The notes beneath the pieces were generated by a model. It was given only the letters and a program-made list of their open reading frames with translations, ran no database searches and had not been told where the DNA came from. This document shows, piece after piece, positions 21,872 through 63,717 of a stretch of 64,000 nt of DNA. Within the stretch, counting starts at the first letter, position 1, and every line of letters begins with the position of its first letter. The stretch is from Methanosarcina mazei S-6. GTDB lineage: Archaea; Halobacteriota; Methanosarcinia; Methanosarcinales; Methanosarcinaceae. The position numbers and the translations under genes were made by a program. The stretch covers positions 2,604,001-2,668,000 of the forward strand of contig NZ_CP009512.1 of NCBI RefSeq assembly GCF_000970205.1. The letters run 5' to 3'.

Positions 21872-22087
21872 TCACTTATGTTTCACGGTTCAGCCCTGCC
21901 AGCAGGACCACATCCCAACGGGACCTAATCCCGAAAATGAAACATGCGATACAACTGAATCATTTGATTTAAAGCTTTGCCCCCTTCAAAGCTTTCAGGA
22001 AGAATCAGTCAATAAGTCAGTCAATAAGTCAATCAATCAAATTTCCAGAAATATATCTCCGGGATTTTCCTGTAAAGATTAACATAC

Positions 22088-34831: not shown

Positions 34832-35950
34832 ATGGAAGAGGTAAATAAAAAAGAACTGAGTGAGCGGGATATTTGCTCAAAGTTTATCACGCCTGCGATC
34901 AAAAGGGCTAACTGGGAAGAAAAACAGATCCGGGAAGAAGTAAACCTTACCAGGGGAAGGATTATTGTTAAAGGTTCATCTGCGAGCAGAGGAAAACCAA
35001 AGAGAGCTGACTATATTCTTTCCTATAAACCCAACCTTCCTCTTGCAGTTGTGGAAGCAAAGAGGAATATTTACACGGTTGGAGAGGGCATGCAGCAGGC
35101 GCTCATGTATGCTGAGATGCTGGACATTCCTTTTGCATTCAGCTCGAATGGGGATGCCTTTTTGCTCCACGACAGGACAGGCACTCTTGGAAAGGTAGAA
35201 GAGGAAATTTCTCTGGACAAATTTCCTTCCCCTGAATTTCTCTGGCGGAAATACTGCGAATGGAAGGGGCTTGACGAAGACAGGCAGAGGATCGTAACCC
35301 AGGACTATTTTTCCGATCGGCAGAAATCCCTGCGATATTATCAGCGTATAGCAATTAACCGGACAATAGAGGCAATTGCAAAAGGGCAGGACAGAATCCT
35401 GCTGGTTATGGCAACAGGTACGGGAAAGACTCTCACGGCATTTCAGATCATCTGGCGCCTCTGGAAGGCAGGGGTGAAAAAAAGAATCCTTTTCCTGGCA
35501 GACAGAAACATCCTTGTTGACCAGACAAAAATTAACGATTTCAAGCATTTCGGGAAGGCAATGACAAAAATCAAGAACCGGGAGGCTGAAAAATCCTACG
35601 AAATTTACCTGTCCCTCTATCAGGCTGTTTCAGGCACAGAAGAAGAGAAAAACATCTACAAACAGTTTTCCCCTGACTTTTTTGACCTTGTGATTGTGGA
35701 CGAATGCCACAGGGGAAGCGCGGCTGAAGATTCCGCATGGAGGGAAATACTCGAATATTTCTCTTCGGCAACGCAGATCGGGCTGACAGCTACCCCGAAA
35801 GAGACAAAAGACGTTTCCAATATCCATTACTTCGGAGAGCCCATCTACACATATTCCCTGATATCCATTAAAAAATCTACGGAATCCCTTTCCTCGGCCT
35901 TCATAGAGCTTCAACCTCATTCAGGATGCGCTTTCCTATATTGGGTTTGA
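34832..35950 (+). pseudogene. hsdR: type I restriction enzyme subunit R (HsdR), truncated
   Basis: Only the amino-terminal third of HsdR remains. The nuclease motif ([20 protein letters not shown], about residues 58-77, PD-(D/E)xK type), Walker [12 protein letters not shown] (about 193), motif II VDECHRG (about 290) and GLTATP are intact. After GEPIYTYSL (about 35861) similarity stops. The last 30 codons are unrelated and run antisense into a nucleotidyltransferase gene. A complete HsdR is about 800-1000 residues and needs the second RecA domain, so this product cannot translocate DNA. HsdM is absent. An HsdS carboxyl-terminal fragment survives at 36324. The break therefore removed most of the locus. 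Confidence 0.88.
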
Positions 35951-36209
35951 GTGCGCTCTTCATTACCAGGTCAACCTTTATTCCTAAAAGGTCGCTCAAA
36001 TAATTTTCCAGCTCAATATATTTCAGCAGTCCTGGTTTCTTATCAAACTGAACCAGAACATCAAGGTCACTATCTTCTGTCTGCTCCCCCCGAATATAAG
36101 AGCCAAAAACTCCAAGGTAGTTTACACTATATTTATCTCTTAACTCAGGCATATGTTGCCTTAATATTTTCATATAATATTCTGCGTCTTTTAGCTCTTG
36201 GGAAGGCAT
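35901..36209 (-). CDS. MNT-domain nucleotidyltransferase (MntA-like), orphan
   Basis: 102 codons, with the minimal nucleotidyltransferase signature [21 protein letters not shown]36-S37 and the metal-binding pair D48/D50 counted from the ATG at 36209. Such proteins AMPylate a HEPN toxin partner or act as its antitoxin. No HEPN gene lies on the minus strand beside it, since its downstream side faces the truncated hsdR. It is therefore an orphan unless it acts on the HepT at 36972. A longer reading to 36245 exists, but the ATG at 36209 aligns with the usual start. It sits between two fragments of a type I restriction locus. Confidence 0.85.
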
Positions 36210-36323
36210 TATTCTGAGATCCTCCACGAAGTCTCGATGAAGCACGATTAAAATCTGAATTTATGCTAACAAGTATGTGTATCATATATATTTGTTATTT
36301 TCTCAAGTTTGGTTTTTTAACAG

Positions 36324-36479
36324 GTGCCTTTACAGAAAAAAATCATTGAAAAAATCGAGCAGTTCATGAGATTATGTGATGAACTCGAATCGAAACTAAG
36401 GAAGTCTCGGGAAGACAGCGAGAAACTTATGGAAGCGGTTGTGAAGGAATTGTTAGAGTGGGCTGCTGCCGAAATATAA
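36324..36479 (+). pseudogene. hsdS: type I specificity subunit (HsdS), carboxyl-terminal remnant
   Basis: 51 codons from 36324: VPLQKKIIEKIEQFMRLCDE, then LESKLRKSREDSEKLMEAVV and KELLEWAAAEI. This is the conserved distal coiled coil and end of archaeal and bacterial HsdS ('Q..I..KV..LM.LCD.LE..L.....' ending in 'LMEAVVKELL'). The target recognition domains are missing, and a stop lies just upstream in frame. It is on the same strand as hsdR, as in an ancestral hsdR/M/S operon. The material between was replaced by the nucleotidyltransferase gene on the opposite strand. Confidence 0.8.
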
Positions 36480-36512
36480 TAAATATGTTGTGAAAATCTC
36501 TCTCAAAAAATC

Positions 36513-36539
36513 AGTCCTCTTGAGCGTAGCGAAAAGGAC
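36513..36539 (+). repeat. 27-bp palindromic dispersed repeat, copy A
   Basis: Starts AGTCCTCTTGAGCG and ends AGCGAAAAGGAC. GTCCT and AGGAC with flanking TT/AA can form a stem. Identical except for one C/T position to copies at 39819, 39868 and 60859. Confidence 0.9.
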
Positions 36540-36548
36540 ACCGCCCTC

Positions 36549-36630
36549 CCGAGGCGGGACTCGGGAAGGACAGCGGACTTCCGAGGCGGGACTCGGGAAG
36601 GACAGCGGACTTCCGAGGCGGGACTCGGGT
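36549..36630 (+). repeat. 32-bp tandem repeat, two and a half copies
   Basis: The unit starts CCGAGGCGGGACTCGGGAAG and ends GACAGCGGACTT (36549, 36581, and a partial copy at 36613). Each contains CCGAG...CTCGG, able to form a hairpin. It lies downstream of the 27-bp dispersed repeat, the same association seen at 39.9 and 60.9 kb. GC content is far above the surroundings. Confidence 0.9.
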
Positions 36631-36678
36631 GGCAAAACTCGGGGAAAGTTTAAATTGAAAATAAAGAAATATATCAAC

Positions 36679-36975
36679 ATGCAAACCGCAGAAGAAAGGG
36701 AAGAGCTGTTTCGCAAAATTTCCTCTTTTCTAAAAAAATACGGGGCAACCAGAGTATCCATTTTCGGATCTTATGTTAGGGGTGAAGAGAAACCGGAAAG
36801 CGATATAGATGTTCTGGTCGAGTTTGCTGATAGAAAAAGCTTGCTGACTCTGGTTAATATCGAACTGGAACTCTCGGATTATCTGGGAATTAAGGTTGAC
36901 CTGCTGACTGAAAAATCGATAAGTCCTTACCTGATAGATGGAATAAAAAAAGAGGCTAAAGTGATATCTGAATGA
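36679..36975 (+). CDS. mntA: MntA-type nucleotidyltransferase antitoxin
   Basis: 98 residues from the ATG at 36679. The signature [20 protein letters not shown] has G30-S31 and catalytic D42/D44. In the studied MntA/HepT systems the MNT protein adds AMP to a Tyr of the HEPN toxin and silences it. The carboxyl end ([19 protein letters not shown]) is usual. The stop overlaps the start of the HepT gene by four bases (ATGA), so both are made together. An upstream reading to 36490 passes through GC-rich repeats and is not used. Related to the orphan copy at 35901, but clearly diverged. Confidence 0.93.
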
Positions 36976-37322
36976 AAAGGGATGATAGGGTATATCTTAG
37001 CCACATCCTCTTATCTACTTCCTTAATTGAAAAATACACAGCGAATTTAACTGAAGAAGAGTTTCTGTCAAATAGTCTTGTTCAGGATGGTACCATCAGG
37101 CAAATTCAGATAATCGGCGAAGCTACTAAAAATCTATCAAAGCCTTTGAGAGAGAAATATCCGCAAATCCACTGGAGAGGAATAGCAGGTATGAGAGATA
37201 AACTGGTTCACGATTATTTTGGTGTGGATATTGATGCTGTATGGGATACCGTAAAAGAGGATATCCCGACTCTCAAAAAGGTAGTTTTAAAAATTGTTCA
37301 GGATCTAAATGAAAAAGCTTAA
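36972..37322 (+). CDS. hepT: HepT-type HEPN ribonuclease toxin (DUF86)
   Basis: 116 residues of HEPN fold. The active-site motif R75-x4-H80-x-Y82 in [15 protein letters not shown] is complete, and Tyr82 is the residue that MntA partners AMPylate in studied systems. 'IGEATKNLS' and '[13 protein letters not shown]' are typical of the family. It acts as an RNase toxin held in check by MntA. It overlaps the upstream mntA by four bases and lies among other stress and defence genes (restriction remnant, Fic, RelE). Confidence is high, because both partners and all key residues are present. Confidence 0.94.
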
Positions 37323-37734
37323 TCTTTTTTGCTTTAAGTTAGAAGGGATCTTTTTATCGAGCGCTAGTTAGGGCAGCCCTAAAATGAAAAAGAAAAAAGA
37401 GGTATAGCACACAGAGTTCTTGAGTATTTAACTTTAAAAAGTTGAATAATTACCATTTTCTTTTCTTCATTTTGGTACTTTCCGCTCTCCTGCGTCGAGC
37501 GTGACAAGACAGATTTGGTAAAGAGAATAAAGTTATACTGGTCGAAGTAATCTGTAATTATGGCTTTTATTAACAGGCAAATAATCTAAAAGGTAATGTA
37601 CATAAATAATTTACGTAAATGATATATTTAACAAATGGTTTTTGAATAGCTTTTGAATAGCTTTTGAATAGCTTTTGAATAGCTTTTGAATAGCTTTTGA
37701 ATAGCTTTTGAATAGCTTTTGAATAGCCCAAAAT
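37323..37734. other. intergenic region with dispersed repeat and 11-bp array
   Basis: No gene is seen. About 37485-37530 contains a member of the CTCTCCTGCGTCGAGCG-type dispersed repeat. The 11-bp array at 37640-37727 ends ten bases before the Fic gene's stop codon. Confidence 0.6.
37640..37727. repeat. 11-bp tandem repeat, eight perfect copies
   Basis: TTTTGAATAGC repeated eight times without error, at the 3' end of the Fic gene (minus strand). Perfect copies indicate recent expansion. Such an array should vary in number between strains. Confidence 0.97.
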
Positions 37735-38775
37735 TTAGAAATTAAGCACGTAAATTATTTGCTGGCTTTTTTTGCCTTTTTGCTGGAGGACATTTTTATC
37801 CACCATATCCTGAAGATCCCGGTTTGCTGTTGGCTGGCTAACGTCACAAAGTTCCTGGTACTCTTTATTTGTAATTCGGCCTTTTTCTTTGAGGTATCCA
37901 ACAGCTTTTATCTGACGGTTGCTCAACCCGATCTGCCCAAATTTTTCTTTCATTGAACGATCACTGCTCAGCTTTTTGACCGTATTTTCTACTCTTGAGG
38001 TTTCTACCGCAATGCCGAAGAGGAAATATTCAAGCCATCCCGTAAGCTCCCCTCCTTTTGCATCGGCATCGGCAAGCGCTGAATAGTAAGCCTGGCGGTC
38101 TTCGTTGTAATATTCCTCAAGGGCGAAAAATTTCTTTGTATCAAAGCCTCTTTTTGTCAGAATAAGCGTGGAAAGGGCTCTTGCAGTCCTGCCGTTGCCG
38201 TCAAGGAAGGGATGGATTCGAGCAATTTCATAATGTGCTATTCCGGCCTGTATAGCAGGCATAAGGTCTAAAGCTTCTGCACTGTTCAACCACTCAAGAA
38301 GGGACCTGGTGAGCAGAGGAACTTCCTCAGGTTCCGGTGGGACATAGGTGATTTTACCGGTTTTCGGGTTTCCGACTACCACCCTGACTTTCCGATAATT
38401 TCCGGCAGAAGCAGCTGGCAGGATATCTTTTACCGTGAGCCTGTGGATTTCGAGGAAAATCTTCTCGGTAATAGAAGTGCTTTCTTCCAGACTGTCTATA
38501 TATTCAAGCACATCAACGTAATTTTTAACTTCATTTTTGTCCTTTTCACCTGCAGGAATATCTTTGCCTTCAATAAGAAGGCTTACTTCTTCAAGAGTAA
38601 GCTGATTCCCTTCTATACTTGTTGTGTGGTGAGTCTGTTTTATAAGAGCTTCTCGCTGGAGTTCTCTCTCCCATGCAGGAATAAGAGGGCTAATCAGAAT
38701 GATCTCACGGGCAGCCTGAATTCGCGCAAGCAGACGCACGATTTTGTTTGTATACTTAAAATTAGGCTGAAACAT
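37735..38775 (-). CDS. Fic family protein (predicted AMP-transferase) with winged helix
   Basis: The catalytic Fic motif HPFLDGNGRTAR (about residues 189-200 from the preferred start) is complete. An amino-terminal inhibitory helix motif (TTSIEGN, matching (S/T)xxxEG) lies near residue 50, so activity is probably auto-inhibited (class II type). A winged-helix DNA-binding domain closes the protein (NRQIKAVGYLKEKGRITNKEY, then CDVSQPTANRDLQDM). This architecture is common in stand-alone Fic proteins of bacteria and archaea whose targets are unknown. The ATG at 38775 (MFQPNFKYTNKI) is the likely start. The reading continues to 38823. It lies in a cluster of toxin-antitoxin genes. Confidence 0.92.
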   Translation of the reverse strand: MFQPNFKYTNKIVRLLARIQAAREIILISPLIPAWERELQREALIKQTHHTTSIEGNQLTLEEVSLLIEGKDIPAGEKDKNEVKNYVDVLEYIDSLEESTSITEKIFLEIHRLTVKDILPAASAGNYRKVRVVVGNPKTGKITYVPPEPEEVPLLTRSLLEWLNSAEALDLMPAIQAGIAHYEIARIHPFLDGNGRTARALSTLILTKRGFDTKKFFALEEYYNEDRQAYYSALADADAKGGELTGWLEYFLFGIAVETSRVENTVKKLSSDRSMKEKFGQIGLSNRQIKAVGYLKEKGRITNKEYQELCDVSQPTANRDLQDMVDKNVLQQKGKKSQQIIYVLNF

Positions 38776-38951
38776 GCTAATTTTCCGATTTTTTGTCCCT
38801 ATAAAAAGAGTCATTCCTTTCATTATTAACTTAACGATGTTTATTTTGAAATTTAAGGAAAAATCCCAGGTCTATTAGAATAGGGGATTGTCAAAAGTAA
38901 ATATGAAGCGGCGGTCTTTACAAAAATTGATCCCGAAGAGAAATTCGGGCT

Positions 38952-39230
38952 TCAAAGCCAATCATATCCTCTTTCTCGTGGAATAATTTCAAGAATGAAA
39001 ATTGTATTTTCTTCCACTGAATAGATCATTCTATAATCGCCAATTCTTAAACGGTACAGGTCATTTCTTTTTTTCGTTCCTTTCAATTTTTTGATGTCAG
39101 CATGGGGTCTGCTTTTAAAAGGGTCCATTTCCAGATTTTTAATTCCTGATTTTAGTCTTTCTTTTGTCTCTGGATTTAAGCTTACCAGAAATTTCACTGC
39201 ATCAGGGTGAAGTTTTACATCGAAACTCAT
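38952..39230 (-). CDS. RelE/ParE-type toxin
   Basis: 92 residues beginning MSFDVKLHPDAVKFLVSLNP, with 'GTKKRNDLYRLRIGDYRMIYSVEENTIFILEI.PRERGYDWL', the usual RelE barrel pattern. The family cleaves ribosome-bound mRNA or inhibits gyrase. Arg and Tyr residues of the RelE type are present in RLRIGDYRMIY. The start shares one base with the antitoxin stop (TAATG), typical of coupled antitoxin-toxin pairs with the antitoxin first. Which of the two activities applies is not decided. Confidence 0.9.
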   Translation of the reverse strand: MSFDVKLHPDAVKFLVSLNPETKERLKSGIKNLEMDPFKSRPHADIKKLKGTKKRNDLYRLRIGDYRMIYSVEENTIFILEIIPRERGYDWL

Positions 39231-39901: not shown

Positions 39902-40302
39902 TCCCGAAGCGAAACTCGGGAAGCGAAACTCGGGAAGCGAAACTCGGGAAGGACGGTGCACTGTAGAGACGCAACTCTGCCGGGACAGGAAAGGTTCTGT
40001 ATTGTGGATGATGTTGCAAGGATCAGAGATTTTATAACTTAATTTTTTGGCCTTAATAAAGCTCATTATTGTAACTTCCAAATAAGGTTTGAATACTACA
40101 TTTATAGTTAACAGGTATGTGTATGATATTTCTCATATTCTCCAGTCTTCGGAGCAAATGACCCTGTAGAAAGATAACATTTTAATGAAATTCATCTAAT
40201 GAGTTTGTGCTATAAACTTAAATTAGAGCCTGAAATTTTTATGATTATGACTGTCAATGCAAAACTGCACTTATAAAAAGTAACATATTATCAATCTAAA
40301 AA

Positions 40303-40310
40303 TTTATATA
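40303..40310 (+). promoter_or_regulatory. TATA box of the tRNA gene
   Basis: TTTATATA lies about 35 bases before the tRNA 5' end at 40341. With the usual spacing of about 25 bases, transcription would begin near 40331 and give a short leader for RNase P. Confidence 0.55.
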
Positions 40311-40340: not shown

Positions 40341-40412
40341 GCCAAGGTGGCGGAGCGGTCACGCAATCGCCAGCAGAGCGATTCAGTCCTGGTTCAAATC
40401 CGGACCTTGGCT
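40341..40412 (+). tRNA. tRNA-Cys (GCA), structurally unusual
   Basis: The seven-bp acceptor stem GCCAAGG/CCTTGGC is perfect and the discriminator is T, as in tRNA-Cys. The anticodon arm AATCGC-CAGCAGA-GCGATT is perfect, with anticodon GCA and G37. The T loop TTCAAAT is canonical. Two oddities: the base before the anticodon is A, where U33 is nearly universal, and the T stem reads CCTGG/CCGGA, as if one T had been inserted in TCCGG, leaving a bulge or C-A mismatch. CCA is not encoded. The D stem has three clear pairs. It may be a divergent isoacceptor or a decaying copy. Confidence 0.8.
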
Positions 40413-40731: not shown

Positions 40732-41481
40732 TTGGAACTGGTCATTGATACTTTGAGCAAAGATATCAGATACGTGGAATTCCCCGTAGGTATAAACAGG
40801 ACCTATCTGGATAACGTTTGTTACGAACTGGATAGAGAAACAGATACGTTGACGATATGTTCGGAAGGAAATTTTTATAGTTCCCTTAAAAAACGAGCTC
40901 CTGACCTGATTAACCGGTTTGGTTTAAGAAAAATTAATATTTTAAAGAAATTGTCGCTTTTTTTATCCGTTGTACTCTTCGTCACGTTAATTTTAAAAAT
41001 AGTTTCAGGAGATCCCGCCTCGCTTTTACCACTTGTATCGATCTCCGGGAGCCTGATGTTTTTTGTTCTTGCCTCATATCTTTCTGAAATAGAGAACTAT
41101 TGCAATATATTCAGATGTAAAAATTGTGGTCGGGACTTTGCTTACGAAGAAATTAAAAGACCCTTTGTCAAAATAGTAAGCACTTACAACAAATATGAAA
41201 AAACAATAACAAGCTACCTGAAGTGCAGGTACTGCCATGATGAATACATCAGGACTGAAATAGCCCGCCAAAATTCGAAATCCAGGTCAAAGAAGACAGA
41301 TAAGAATAGAAAAACCTGCAAAGGTTGCGGGAAGGATTATAGCCTTGTAGAATACAGATATCCGGATGCCCATCTGGAATACCATAATATTTTCAGGACA
41401 ATCCGGCACTATAAATGTGTACACTGCGGATACGTGGAAGTCCGCATAAAAGATGACCATATTGCCATAAATAGAGTATAA
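40732..41481 (+). CDS. membrane protein with two zinc ribbons (249 aa), paralogue 1
   Basis: The amino-terminal 70 residues are soluble. Two hydrophobic segments follow (about 74-92 and 97-116), then two zinc-ribbon units: CKNCGRDF ... LKCRYCHDE (about 126-165) and CKGCGKDY ... YKCVHCGYVEV (about 197-240). In each unit the second CxxC follows about 35-40 residues later, after a stretch containing 'RP...' or 'YPD'. No family was recognised. The topology suggests a membrane-anchored cytoplasmic or external metal- or nucleic-acid-binding domain. The start is TTG at 40732, with only a weak ribosome binding site. Paralogous to 42284-43021. Confidence 0.75.
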   Translation: MELVIDTLSKDIRYVEFPVGINRTYLDNVCYELDRETDTLTICSEGNFYSSLKKRAPDLINRFGLRKINILKKLSLFLSVVLFVTLILKIVSGDPASLLPLVSISGSLMFFVLASYLSEIENYCNIFRCKNCGRDFAYEEIKRPFVKIVSTYNKYEKTITSYLKCRYCHDEYIRTEIARQNSKSRSKKTDKNRKTCKGCGKDYSLVEYRYPDAHLEYHNIFRTIRHYKCVHCGYVEVRIKDDHIAINRV

Positions 41482-62188: not shown

Positions 62189-63717
62189 GTAACTATTCAG
62201 GTAGCCTTAACGAGGCTACACATTTTTCCTCGTTCCGAGGAAAAATTGGATATAAAATGATTCCTTTTTAGCTTTATGAAACGTGATGAGATTCTTTCTT
62301 ACTGTGCTTCAAATCCTGAAATTATTGTAGCTTACATTGAGAGTTTAGAATCTCAAGTTAAAGAACTCACTGAAAGACTTGTAGCCTTAGAATCTCGTTT
62401 AAATCAAAACAGTCGTAACAGCAGTCGACCTCCTTCTACTGATTATTTTGTCAAAGAGAAACCTAATCCCAAGAGTCTGCGTAAACCAAGCGGGAAGAAA
62501 CCTGGAGGTCAGGAAGGTCATCCAGGCACGACTCTTGATATGGTTGATCATCCTGAGTAGGTAATAGAACATTCTTTGACCTGCTGCAAAGAATGCGGAT
62601 CTACCCTTGAGAATGTTGAAGTTGAAGCTTATGAGAGAAGACAGGTCTTTGACATTCCTCCCGTAAATCTAATTGTTACAGAACATAAAAGTCAGATTAA
62701 AACCTGTCCTTGTTGTGGAAAGTTGAATAAAGCCGTTTTTCCCGAATCAGTGAAATATCCGGTTCAGTATGGCCCTAATATTTTAGCTTCAGCTATTTAC
62801 TGTAAAAATTACCAGTTTGTTCCTTATGATAGAATTTCTGAGTTATTTGAAGACATTATGGGAATAAAAATCTGTCCTGCTACGATAATTAGAGCAGAAA
62901 GAGAATGTTTCCAGAATTTAGAGGAATTTGAAAACGTTATTAGAGAGAAGTTATTAGCCTCGCCTGTAATCAATTTTGATGAAACTGGTATGAAGATTGA
63001 AGGAAAAAGACACTGGCTTCATGTAGCTTCTAATGAAAAATACACATGTTATTTTGCTCATACAAAAAGAGGAGCAGAAGCAATAGATGCTATGGGAATT
63101 CTTCCGAAGTTTAAGGGAGTAGCAGTTCATGATGGATGGAAACCTTACAACGTTTATGATTGTGATCATGCTCTGTGTAACGCTCATTTACAGAGAGAAC
63201 TTACAGGAATTGAAGAGAACTATAAACAGACATGGGCTAAAGAGATGAATGAACTGCTCACTGAGATGAAGAAATACACTGATGAGTGTAAAGAGCAATT
63301 AAGAGAACCTGATTTTGAGCAAATTAAAGCATTGGAAGAAAGGTTTGATGCAATTATCATTAGAGCGCTTGAAGAAAATCCGCATTCTCTAAATCCTGAA
63401 AAACAGGGAAAACGCGGTAAAAATCCAAAAACAAAATCAAGGAATCTGCTGGATAGGTTTATAGAACACAAAGAAAAGATTCTGAGATTCCTGACAGATT
63501 TGAAAGTTCCATTTGATAATAATCAGGCAGAAAGAGATATCAGGATGATGAAACTACAGCAGAAAATATCGGGAACTTTCAGAAAAGCAATGGGAGCGCA
63601 AGCTTTCTGCAGAATTAGGGCGTACATTTCTACAGGAAAAAAGAACGGTTTACCTGTTTTAGAGGGTATTCGTGCGGCGCTCATAGGAGCGCCGTTAACT
63701 ATACTCTGAGCAGTTAC
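62189..63717 (+). mobile_element. complete IS66-family insertion sequence (1529 bp)
   Basis: The left end is GTAACTATTCAGG. The right end, reversed, is GTAACTGCTCAGAG, so the terminal repeats share GTAACT..TCAG. An 8-bp direct repeat TTTATTTT flanks the element. It contains one transposase frame broken only by a TAG codon. It disrupts the signal peptide of a surface protein gene. Confidence 0.93.
62276..63709 (+). CDS. IS66-family transposase with in-frame TAG at codon 95
   Basis: One frame of 478 codons is interrupted once, by TAG at 62558-62560 between DMVDHPE and VIEHSLTCC. The amino part has a leucine-zipper helix (SLESQVKELTERLVALESRL) and NQNSRNSSRPPSTD, typical of IS66. After the TAG come a zinc finger (CCKECGS ... 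CPCCGK) and the DDE core: first Asp in VINFDETGMKIEGK, second in VHDGWKPYNVYDC, Glu in NNQAERDIRMMK. Methanosarcina can decode UAG as pyrrolysine, so the product may be a 477-residue protein with Pyl95. Otherwise it is a 94-residue fragment with separate initiation downstream. Everything else in the element looks intact. Confidence 0.88.

Follow-up and report, generated by a model that had tools for sequence, protein, structure and literature searches.

Methanosarcina mazei S-6 carries, in addition to an ordinary tandem pair, a third tRNA-Cys gene in which A33 takes the place of U33 and the T stem is altered. We tentatively favor the reading that this is a maintained, CysRS-chargeable isodecoder that may be partly withdrawn from ordinary elongation. 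As A33 is fixed in 13 genomes, the gene provides a natural test of what U33, which is held to be nearly universal, is for.

An unusual tRNA-Cys gene in M. mazei

The gene lies in a 64,000-nt stretch of DNA that was analyzed as a whole (here, the window), from a genome assembled as a single contig of 4.14 Mb. ARAGORN predicted tRNA-Cys(gca) at exactly the coordinates given in Table 1 and no other tRNA in the entire window. The predicted tRNA is 72 nt long, with an acceptor stem paired at seven of seven positions (read by eye), an anticodon stem (AUCGC/GCGAU) paired at five of five, U73, G37, the GCA anticodon, G18G19, and the T loop UUCAAAU. Scored against the Rfam tRNA model, the gene reached 42.8 bits (cutoff, 29) over model positions 1 to 71 of 71, with C49-A65 marked as a nonpair, while the two canonical genes of the same genome scored 55.5 and 55.6 bits. 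It was absent from two Rfam searches run with fast filters. The first-pass annotation of this DNA, which had described a tRNA-Cys with GCA, U73, A33, and perfect acceptor and anticodon stems, is thus confirmed by ARAGORN, by the Rfam model, and by eye.

Table 1. Features of the A33 tRNA-Cys locus (positions in the window)
Feature	Position	Strand	Basis or remark
Conserved upstream block with TTTATATA (40303-40310), archaeal TATA-box-like, ~38 nt before the gene	40292-40310	+	Alignment of 13 genomes
tRNA-Cys(GCA) gene (A33, altered T stem, no encoded CCA)	40341-40412	+	ARAGORN, Rfam tRNA model, orthologues
Anticodon loop CAGCAGA	40371-40377	+	A33 = 40372; anticodon GCA = 40373-40375; G37 = 40376
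Variable loop UCAGU	40383-40387	+	G47 here, A47 in the canonical genes of the same genome
T arm CCUGG-UUCAAAU-CCGGA	40388-40404	+	C49-A65 nonpair plus U51-G63, or UCC(U)GG bulge register with the U at 40387
ZnR-B, 249 aa; four CxxC pairs, one hydrophobic stretch	40732-41481	+	No Pfam family above cutoff; linked to the A33 tRNA
ZnR-C, paralogous neighbor, 245 aa	42284-43021	+	Comparison of locus proteins

In the standard register of the T stem, C49-A65 is unpaired and is followed by C50-G64, a U51-G63 wobble, G52-C62, and G53-C61. The two registers are nearly equal in calculated energy, at −23.4 kcal/mol for this mismatch register and −22.8 kcal/mol for the bulged-U register, the bulge being 0.6 kcal/mol weaker. 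The T stem had also been described as looking as if one T had been inserted. The stem is indeed disturbed, but there is no net insertion: the two canonical genes are likewise 72 nt long (they differ from the A33 gene at 9 and 11 positions, sharing 63 and 61 of 72), so that an inserted T would require the compensating loss of a base in the variable loop.

To see how rare these features are within the genome, we took the loci of 52 tRNA matches together with the window locus, from which ARAGORN returned 48 distinct sequences. Forty-seven of them have U33, and A33 occurs solely in the gene described here. A T-stem nonpair was found in two of the 47 scorable tRNAs (tRNA-Pyl was not scored), namely, the A33 tRNA-Cys and tRNA-Gln(CTG).

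Distribution and conservation

When 185 genomes of the order were searched with a 33-nt pattern spanning A33 and the T arm, up to three mismatches being allowed, 14 gave a match, every one from the genus Methanosarcina. The A33 form was present at one related locus in 13 of 30 Methanosarcina genomes. In the 14th genome, G002, two copies share this T stem yet have U33, and each is situated a few hundred bases from a canonical tRNA-Cys pair. Among the matches listed by BLAST there was no near relative besides G002, and an exact scan of the genome_contigs collection returned seven records, all from Methanosarcina, a count from which near relatives of the window are possibly omitted. Viral contigs and plasmids gave no match to the A33 tRNA. 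Most genomes that have the A33 gene also have the canonical pair. G013 at first seemed to lack a canonical tRNA-Cys, which would force the A33 gene to decode, but this was rejected, as its canonical gene spans a run of N at C8. The draft assemblies G011 and G018 yielded no tRNA-Cys match at an E value of 0.001.

Across the 13 A33 genomes, the gene has a mean pairwise identity of 98.1%, with 67 of 72 positions invariant, whereas the flanks are 42.5% (150 to 61 nt upstream) and 44.9% (76 to 150 nt downstream) identical and have no invariant columns. Only positions 12, 16, 20, 26, and 46 of the gene vary; A33 and the ten T-stem bases are constant, in a class whose defining pattern itself includes A33 and the T arm, though with up to three mismatches tolerated. 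The stem CCUGG/CCGGA is found in all 13 genomes and in both G002 copies. tRNA position 47 is G in 12 of the 13 (C47 in G005), and the sole new stem break among the orthologues is A12, again in G005. In the 60 nt upstream of the gene, identity is 72% and 20 columns are invariant; this stretch contains the block with TTTATATA, to which we ascribe a putative promoter role by its resemblance to an archaeal TATA box. A scan for bacterial promoters and terminators, a type unsuited to archaea, found nothing above chance. Since the gene has stayed nearly identical while its flanks drifted, with A33 and the T stem fixed, the odd features appear to be maintained and not decaying.

Loss, origin, and neighborhood of the gene

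We mapped the A33 form on a tree built from concatenated CysRS and SepRS sequences (30 rows, 1037 columns), on which it requires at least five changes. One clade has 13 members, of which 11 carry the gene; the remaining two are G029 and G014, the latter with a contig that begins within the locus. The other large clade has it only in the window genome and G024, beside a different pair of paralogous neighbors. G029 lacks the gene, and its neighborhood from ~310 nt downstream is partly 85 to 90% identical to that of G003. The gene has been lost cleanly at least once, in G029, and this absence together with the number of changes on the tree implies that it is dispensable. Local alignment of the tRNA to 13 neighbor-gene stretches from 12 genomes lacking it revealed no remnants, as the scores fell inside the shuffled range; the best-looking candidate, a 17-nt stretch in G007, was rejected because it falls inside an open reading frame. 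We read the patchy pattern as an old locus with repeated loss, although transfer of the gene into the window genome and G024 is possible.

The atypical features, the loss in G029, and the patchy presence are also what a decaying duplicate might display, and the first-pass annotation had named absence from orthologous loci as a sign of a pseudogene. Such absence was found in one checked case, G029, where the gene was lost cleanly instead of decaying at its locus. Moreover, a pseudogene should drift at the rate of its flanks, which this gene does not; the upstream block is kept, a single orthologue has gained a stem break, and the transcript can be charged in vitro (PMC4329189). We therefore consider a pseudogene very improbable. 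The annotation had left the choice between a specialized isoacceptor and a decaying copy: the presence of the gene in 13 of 30 genomes with drifted flanks refutes decay, and specialization fits both the conservation and the literature.

As for its origin, the best explanation derives the A33 gene from a duplicate of the canonical tandem pair. The U33 copies of one genome, G002, suggest an order in which duplication near the canonical array was followed by the T-stem change (pairs 49-65 and 51-63) and only later by the change from U33 to A33 with relocation; a reversal from A33 to U33 in G002 is possible as well. These copies, with the altered T stem, lie in separate arrays on G002:C4 and G002:C11, where each is accompanied by two canonical tRNA-Cys genes; the arrays may have been duplicated, or the assembly may combine two strains. 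An origin as a mobile element or attachment site was rejected, as the window has no second copy of either tRNA end (up to three mismatches allowed) and there was no viral or plasmid match.

In all 13 A33 genomes, the tRNA is followed on the same strand by a frame for a CxxC protein of ~250 residues (278 in G024), starting 292 to 1543 nt past the tRNA start. No Pfam or NCBIfam model reached its cutoff in the CxxC neighbor proteins scanned. The neighbor is of the ZnR-A type in 11 A33 genomes and of the ZnR-B type, together with ZnR-C, in 2. ZnR-A also occurs without the A33 tRNA in G002, G011, G014, and G029 (in G014, the contig breaks at the tRNA position), and ZnR-C is kept in G001, G007, G008, G019, and G022, from which the A33 tRNA is absent. 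Given two paralogue types and a ZnR-A without the tRNA, we rejected a functional tie and take the linkage as shared ancestry of the locus.

Elsewhere in the window, a defense-like stretch precedes the tRNA (34832-39230), with the first ~340 residues of an EcoAI-type restriction subunit (in a 372-aa frame), an MntA/HepT-like pair, a Fic protein, and a ParE-like toxin. Rfam models matched PYLIS_5, the pyrrolysine insertion element of a transposase, at 62558-62657 (129.2 bits) and an eL15 ribosomal protein leader at 21882-21933 on the minus strand (46.2 bits).

Charging and the two cysteine routes

With CCA added, the A33 gene is identical at 72 of 72 nt to the 75-nt "M. mazei tRNA-Cys" transcript of Yanagisawa et al. 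2015 (PMC4329189). The gene is therefore already in print as the tRNA-Cys of this species. In vitro, M. mazei CysRS attached radioactive cysteine to that transcript, at 5 µM enzyme and 10 µM tRNA, so the A33 product is chargeable by the direct route, at least when unmodified and at high enzyme concentrations. In its available text, PMC4329189 passes over A33, the T stem, and the other two tRNA-Cys genes, and the words U33 and isoacceptor do not occur there. The available portions of the literature on A33, unusual tRNA-Cys, and expression likewise held no statement on the A33 of this gene, which the primary papers by Hauenstein may mention.

It is conceivable, if somewhat unlikely, that the isoacceptor is route specific, i.e., selected for charging by CysRS and not SepRS (or the reverse), so that direct charging is separated from tRNA-dependent cysteine synthesis. 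This is compatible with withdrawal from elongation. According to the available text of the review PMC9976931, with which PMC8762117 largely agrees in the statement citing Hauenstein and co-workers, A47 is a minor tRNA-Cys determinant. The A33 tRNA lacks it, having G47 (C47 in G005) and a changed core, which, along with the published charging by CysRS (PMC4329189), would fit a preference for one route. Yet the same review lists A47 also among the weaker CysRS determinants, and in that text it names neither A33 nor the T-stem pairs as determinants for SepRS or CysRS. Every one of the 13 A33 genomes has CysRS, as do 14 of the 17 others, an association that accords with route specificity in direction but is not significant (P = 0.24 by Fisher's test).

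SepRS was above the cutoff in 28 of 30 genomes; only the drafts G025 and G026 gave no such hit. Three genomes (G015, G016, and G018) have SepRS and no CysRS above the family cutoff, and may rely on the indirect route alone; G016 is 92% complete.

A third class of tRNA-Cys(GCA) was seen as five genes in G013 (L236, G013:C130, 5327-9398) and three in G029 (L237, 5001-9101), scattered among sulfur metabolism genes, several with a C51-A63 nonpair in the T stem. The last of these tRNA genes ends 12 nt before a gene for an N-terminally extended SepCysS, and the stretch also encodes a FemAB-like GNAT protein. The association of tRNA-Cys with clade VII SepCysS has been published (PMC5424206). By sequence hits, this linked class occurs in 13 of 30 genomes, 5 of which also have the A33 gene, and is absent from the genome of the window. 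Sister pairs hinted at mutual exclusion of the two genes, which the counts did not support: 5 genomes have both, 8 the A33 gene only, 8 the linked class only, and 9 neither (P = 0.72 by Fisher's test).

Elongation and candidate users

The anticodon loop makes its turn at U33, and with A there instead, weak use of the tRNA in elongation may be expected. The T stem points the same way, since pairs 49:65, 50:64, and 51:63 set EF-Tu affinity (PMC11231383; rules for bacteria, not for archaeal EF1A) and pairs 49-65 and 51-63 have been lost in a tRNA-Gly of Staphylococcus aureus. The U-turn of the anticodon loop is treated in PMC5485724. Together, the T-stem change and A33 would make the tRNA a poor substrate for the ordinary elongation route, and poor use there could set aside a Cys-tRNA pool for a special user or for special conditions.

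The leading candidate for such a user is the SelB-like protein aSelBL/MM1309. MM1309 binds the Cys-charged transcript of this very gene, with the half-life rising from ~80 to ~300 min (PMC4329189), and aSelBL has been described as most likely binding Cys-tRNA and as possibly acting outside standard elongation (PMC3037878). In the available text of PMC4329189, we found no comparison with MM1309 on canonical tRNA-Cys. MM1309 homologues are reported to be strictly conserved in Methanosarcina and in other genera (PMC4329189), while among 185 genomes of the order only 14, all from one genus, have the A33 tRNA or its intermediate form, which means that neither partner strictly requires the other. 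The tRNA shown to be held by the orphan SelB-like MM1309 is this one, and its host is an archaeon that makes Cys-tRNA in two ways. Should the tRNA prove to be kept out of elongation, the role of aSelBL, long open, could be tested directly.

A stronger version, which we think improbable, has the tRNA largely withdrawn from decoding: A33 would spoil the anticodon turn, the T stem would evade EF1A, and aSelBL would pass the cysteine on to a process other than normal elongation, for instance lipid or peptide cysteinylation or protected storage. To our knowledge, a tRNA withdrawn from decoding in this way would be the first in an archaeon.

The A33 tRNA may also simply decode, since the tRNA model recognizes it and G18G19, GCA, and U73 are retained. 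Its A33 and weak T stem would then be tolerated, the gene being a redundant third copy that supplements the pool of Cys-tRNA. Mutant tRNAs lacking U33 keep some activity in older suppressor studies, which counts for ordinary decoding, as do the retained G37 and stems and the presence of the canonical pair in most of the same genomes. Charging by CysRS (PMC4329189) fits as well. If decoding is normal, the published use of the transcript as a standard tRNA-Cys stands, and U33 is less essential than thought. However, neither A33 nor C49-A65 has reverted or drifted in 13 genomes whose flanks are only ~43 to 45% identical, and U33 is held by 47 of the 48 tRNA sequences of the genome; ordinary decoding therefore seems to us somewhat unlikely. 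On balance, partial withdrawal is the reading that we cautiously put first, with ordinary decoding and route-specific charging close behind.

We also considered whether the A33 tRNA is a donor for a tRNA-dependent transferase outside translation, such as lipid aminoacylation of the MprF type. Long MprF-like proteins (PF09924; frames mostly of 860 to 890 aa, e.g., G000:C1:1831358-1832218) occur in 22 of 30 Methanosarcina genomes, and broken remnants were seen in G002, G010, and G023. The long form is present in 13 of 13 A33 genomes and in 9 of the 17 others (P = 0.0044 by Fisher's test); G023, the sister of the A33 genome G024, has a short, interrupted remnant and lacks the A33 tRNA, and in G006, G017, and G028 the MprF gene lies 13 to 20 kb from the tRNA. 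These three genomes form one clade, however, and elsewhere on shared contigs the genes are far apart. When kinship is allowed for, four independent pairs are left (one or two agree, none disagree, and the rest are the same), with which significance is unreachable, so the co-occurrence is a lead only. Furthermore, the MprF enzymes covered in the available text of PMC9976931 use Lys or Ala and are proposed to recognize the aminoacyl moiety. We regard an MprF-type donor role as quite unlikely, and both MM1309 and MprF are candidates only as users of the cysteine. The lantibiotic dehydratase family PF04738 had no match in the 30 genomes, but the controls had none either, which makes this result uninformative.

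Comparison with known systems

The canonical tRNA-Cys genes of Methanosarcina share GCA, U73, G37, and near-identical acceptor and D arms with the A33 gene. In contrast, the canonical pair has U33, a perfect UCCGG/CCGGA T stem, A47, and G57, and A33 does not occur among the canonical copies listed. The transcript of PMC4329189, although of the same sequence as the A33 gene, is treated there as "the" M. mazei tRNA-Cys, its A33 passing unremarked in the available text. The tRNA-Cys at the clade VII SepCysS locus (PMC5424206) is likewise an extra tRNA-Cys in archaea with SepRS, but it has other sequences, U33, and another locus.

The bacterial selC* tRNA-Cys with SelB* (PMC7609411) offers a parallel in that it, too, is a second tRNA-Cys with an irregular T arm and a relative of SelB as the presumed partner. 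It differs in architecture: selC* combines an 8-bp acceptor stem and a 4-bp T stem with an A51a bulge (PMC7609411), whereas the A33 tRNA is of the 7/5 type, with a 7-bp acceptor stem and a five-column T stem. A bulge like that of selC* is possible in the A33 tRNA through the bulged-U register, which is 0.6 kcal/mol less stable than the mismatch register. The loci differ as well, as SelB* adjoins selC* (PMC7609411) and no SelB-type gene was recognized among the A33 neighbors scanned. The selC* criterion of an 8-bp acceptor stem and a 4-bp T stem thus does not describe the A33 tRNA.

Some of the nonproteinogenic tRNA-Gly species of S. aureus have lost G18G19. As presented in PMC9976931, this tRNA-Gly is, like the A33 tRNA, an extra isoacceptor in which pairs 49-65 and 51-63 are changed. 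The A33 tRNA departs from it in keeping G18G19 and in adding the change at U33, while the S. aureus tRNA-Gly has a known consumer, cell wall synthesis.
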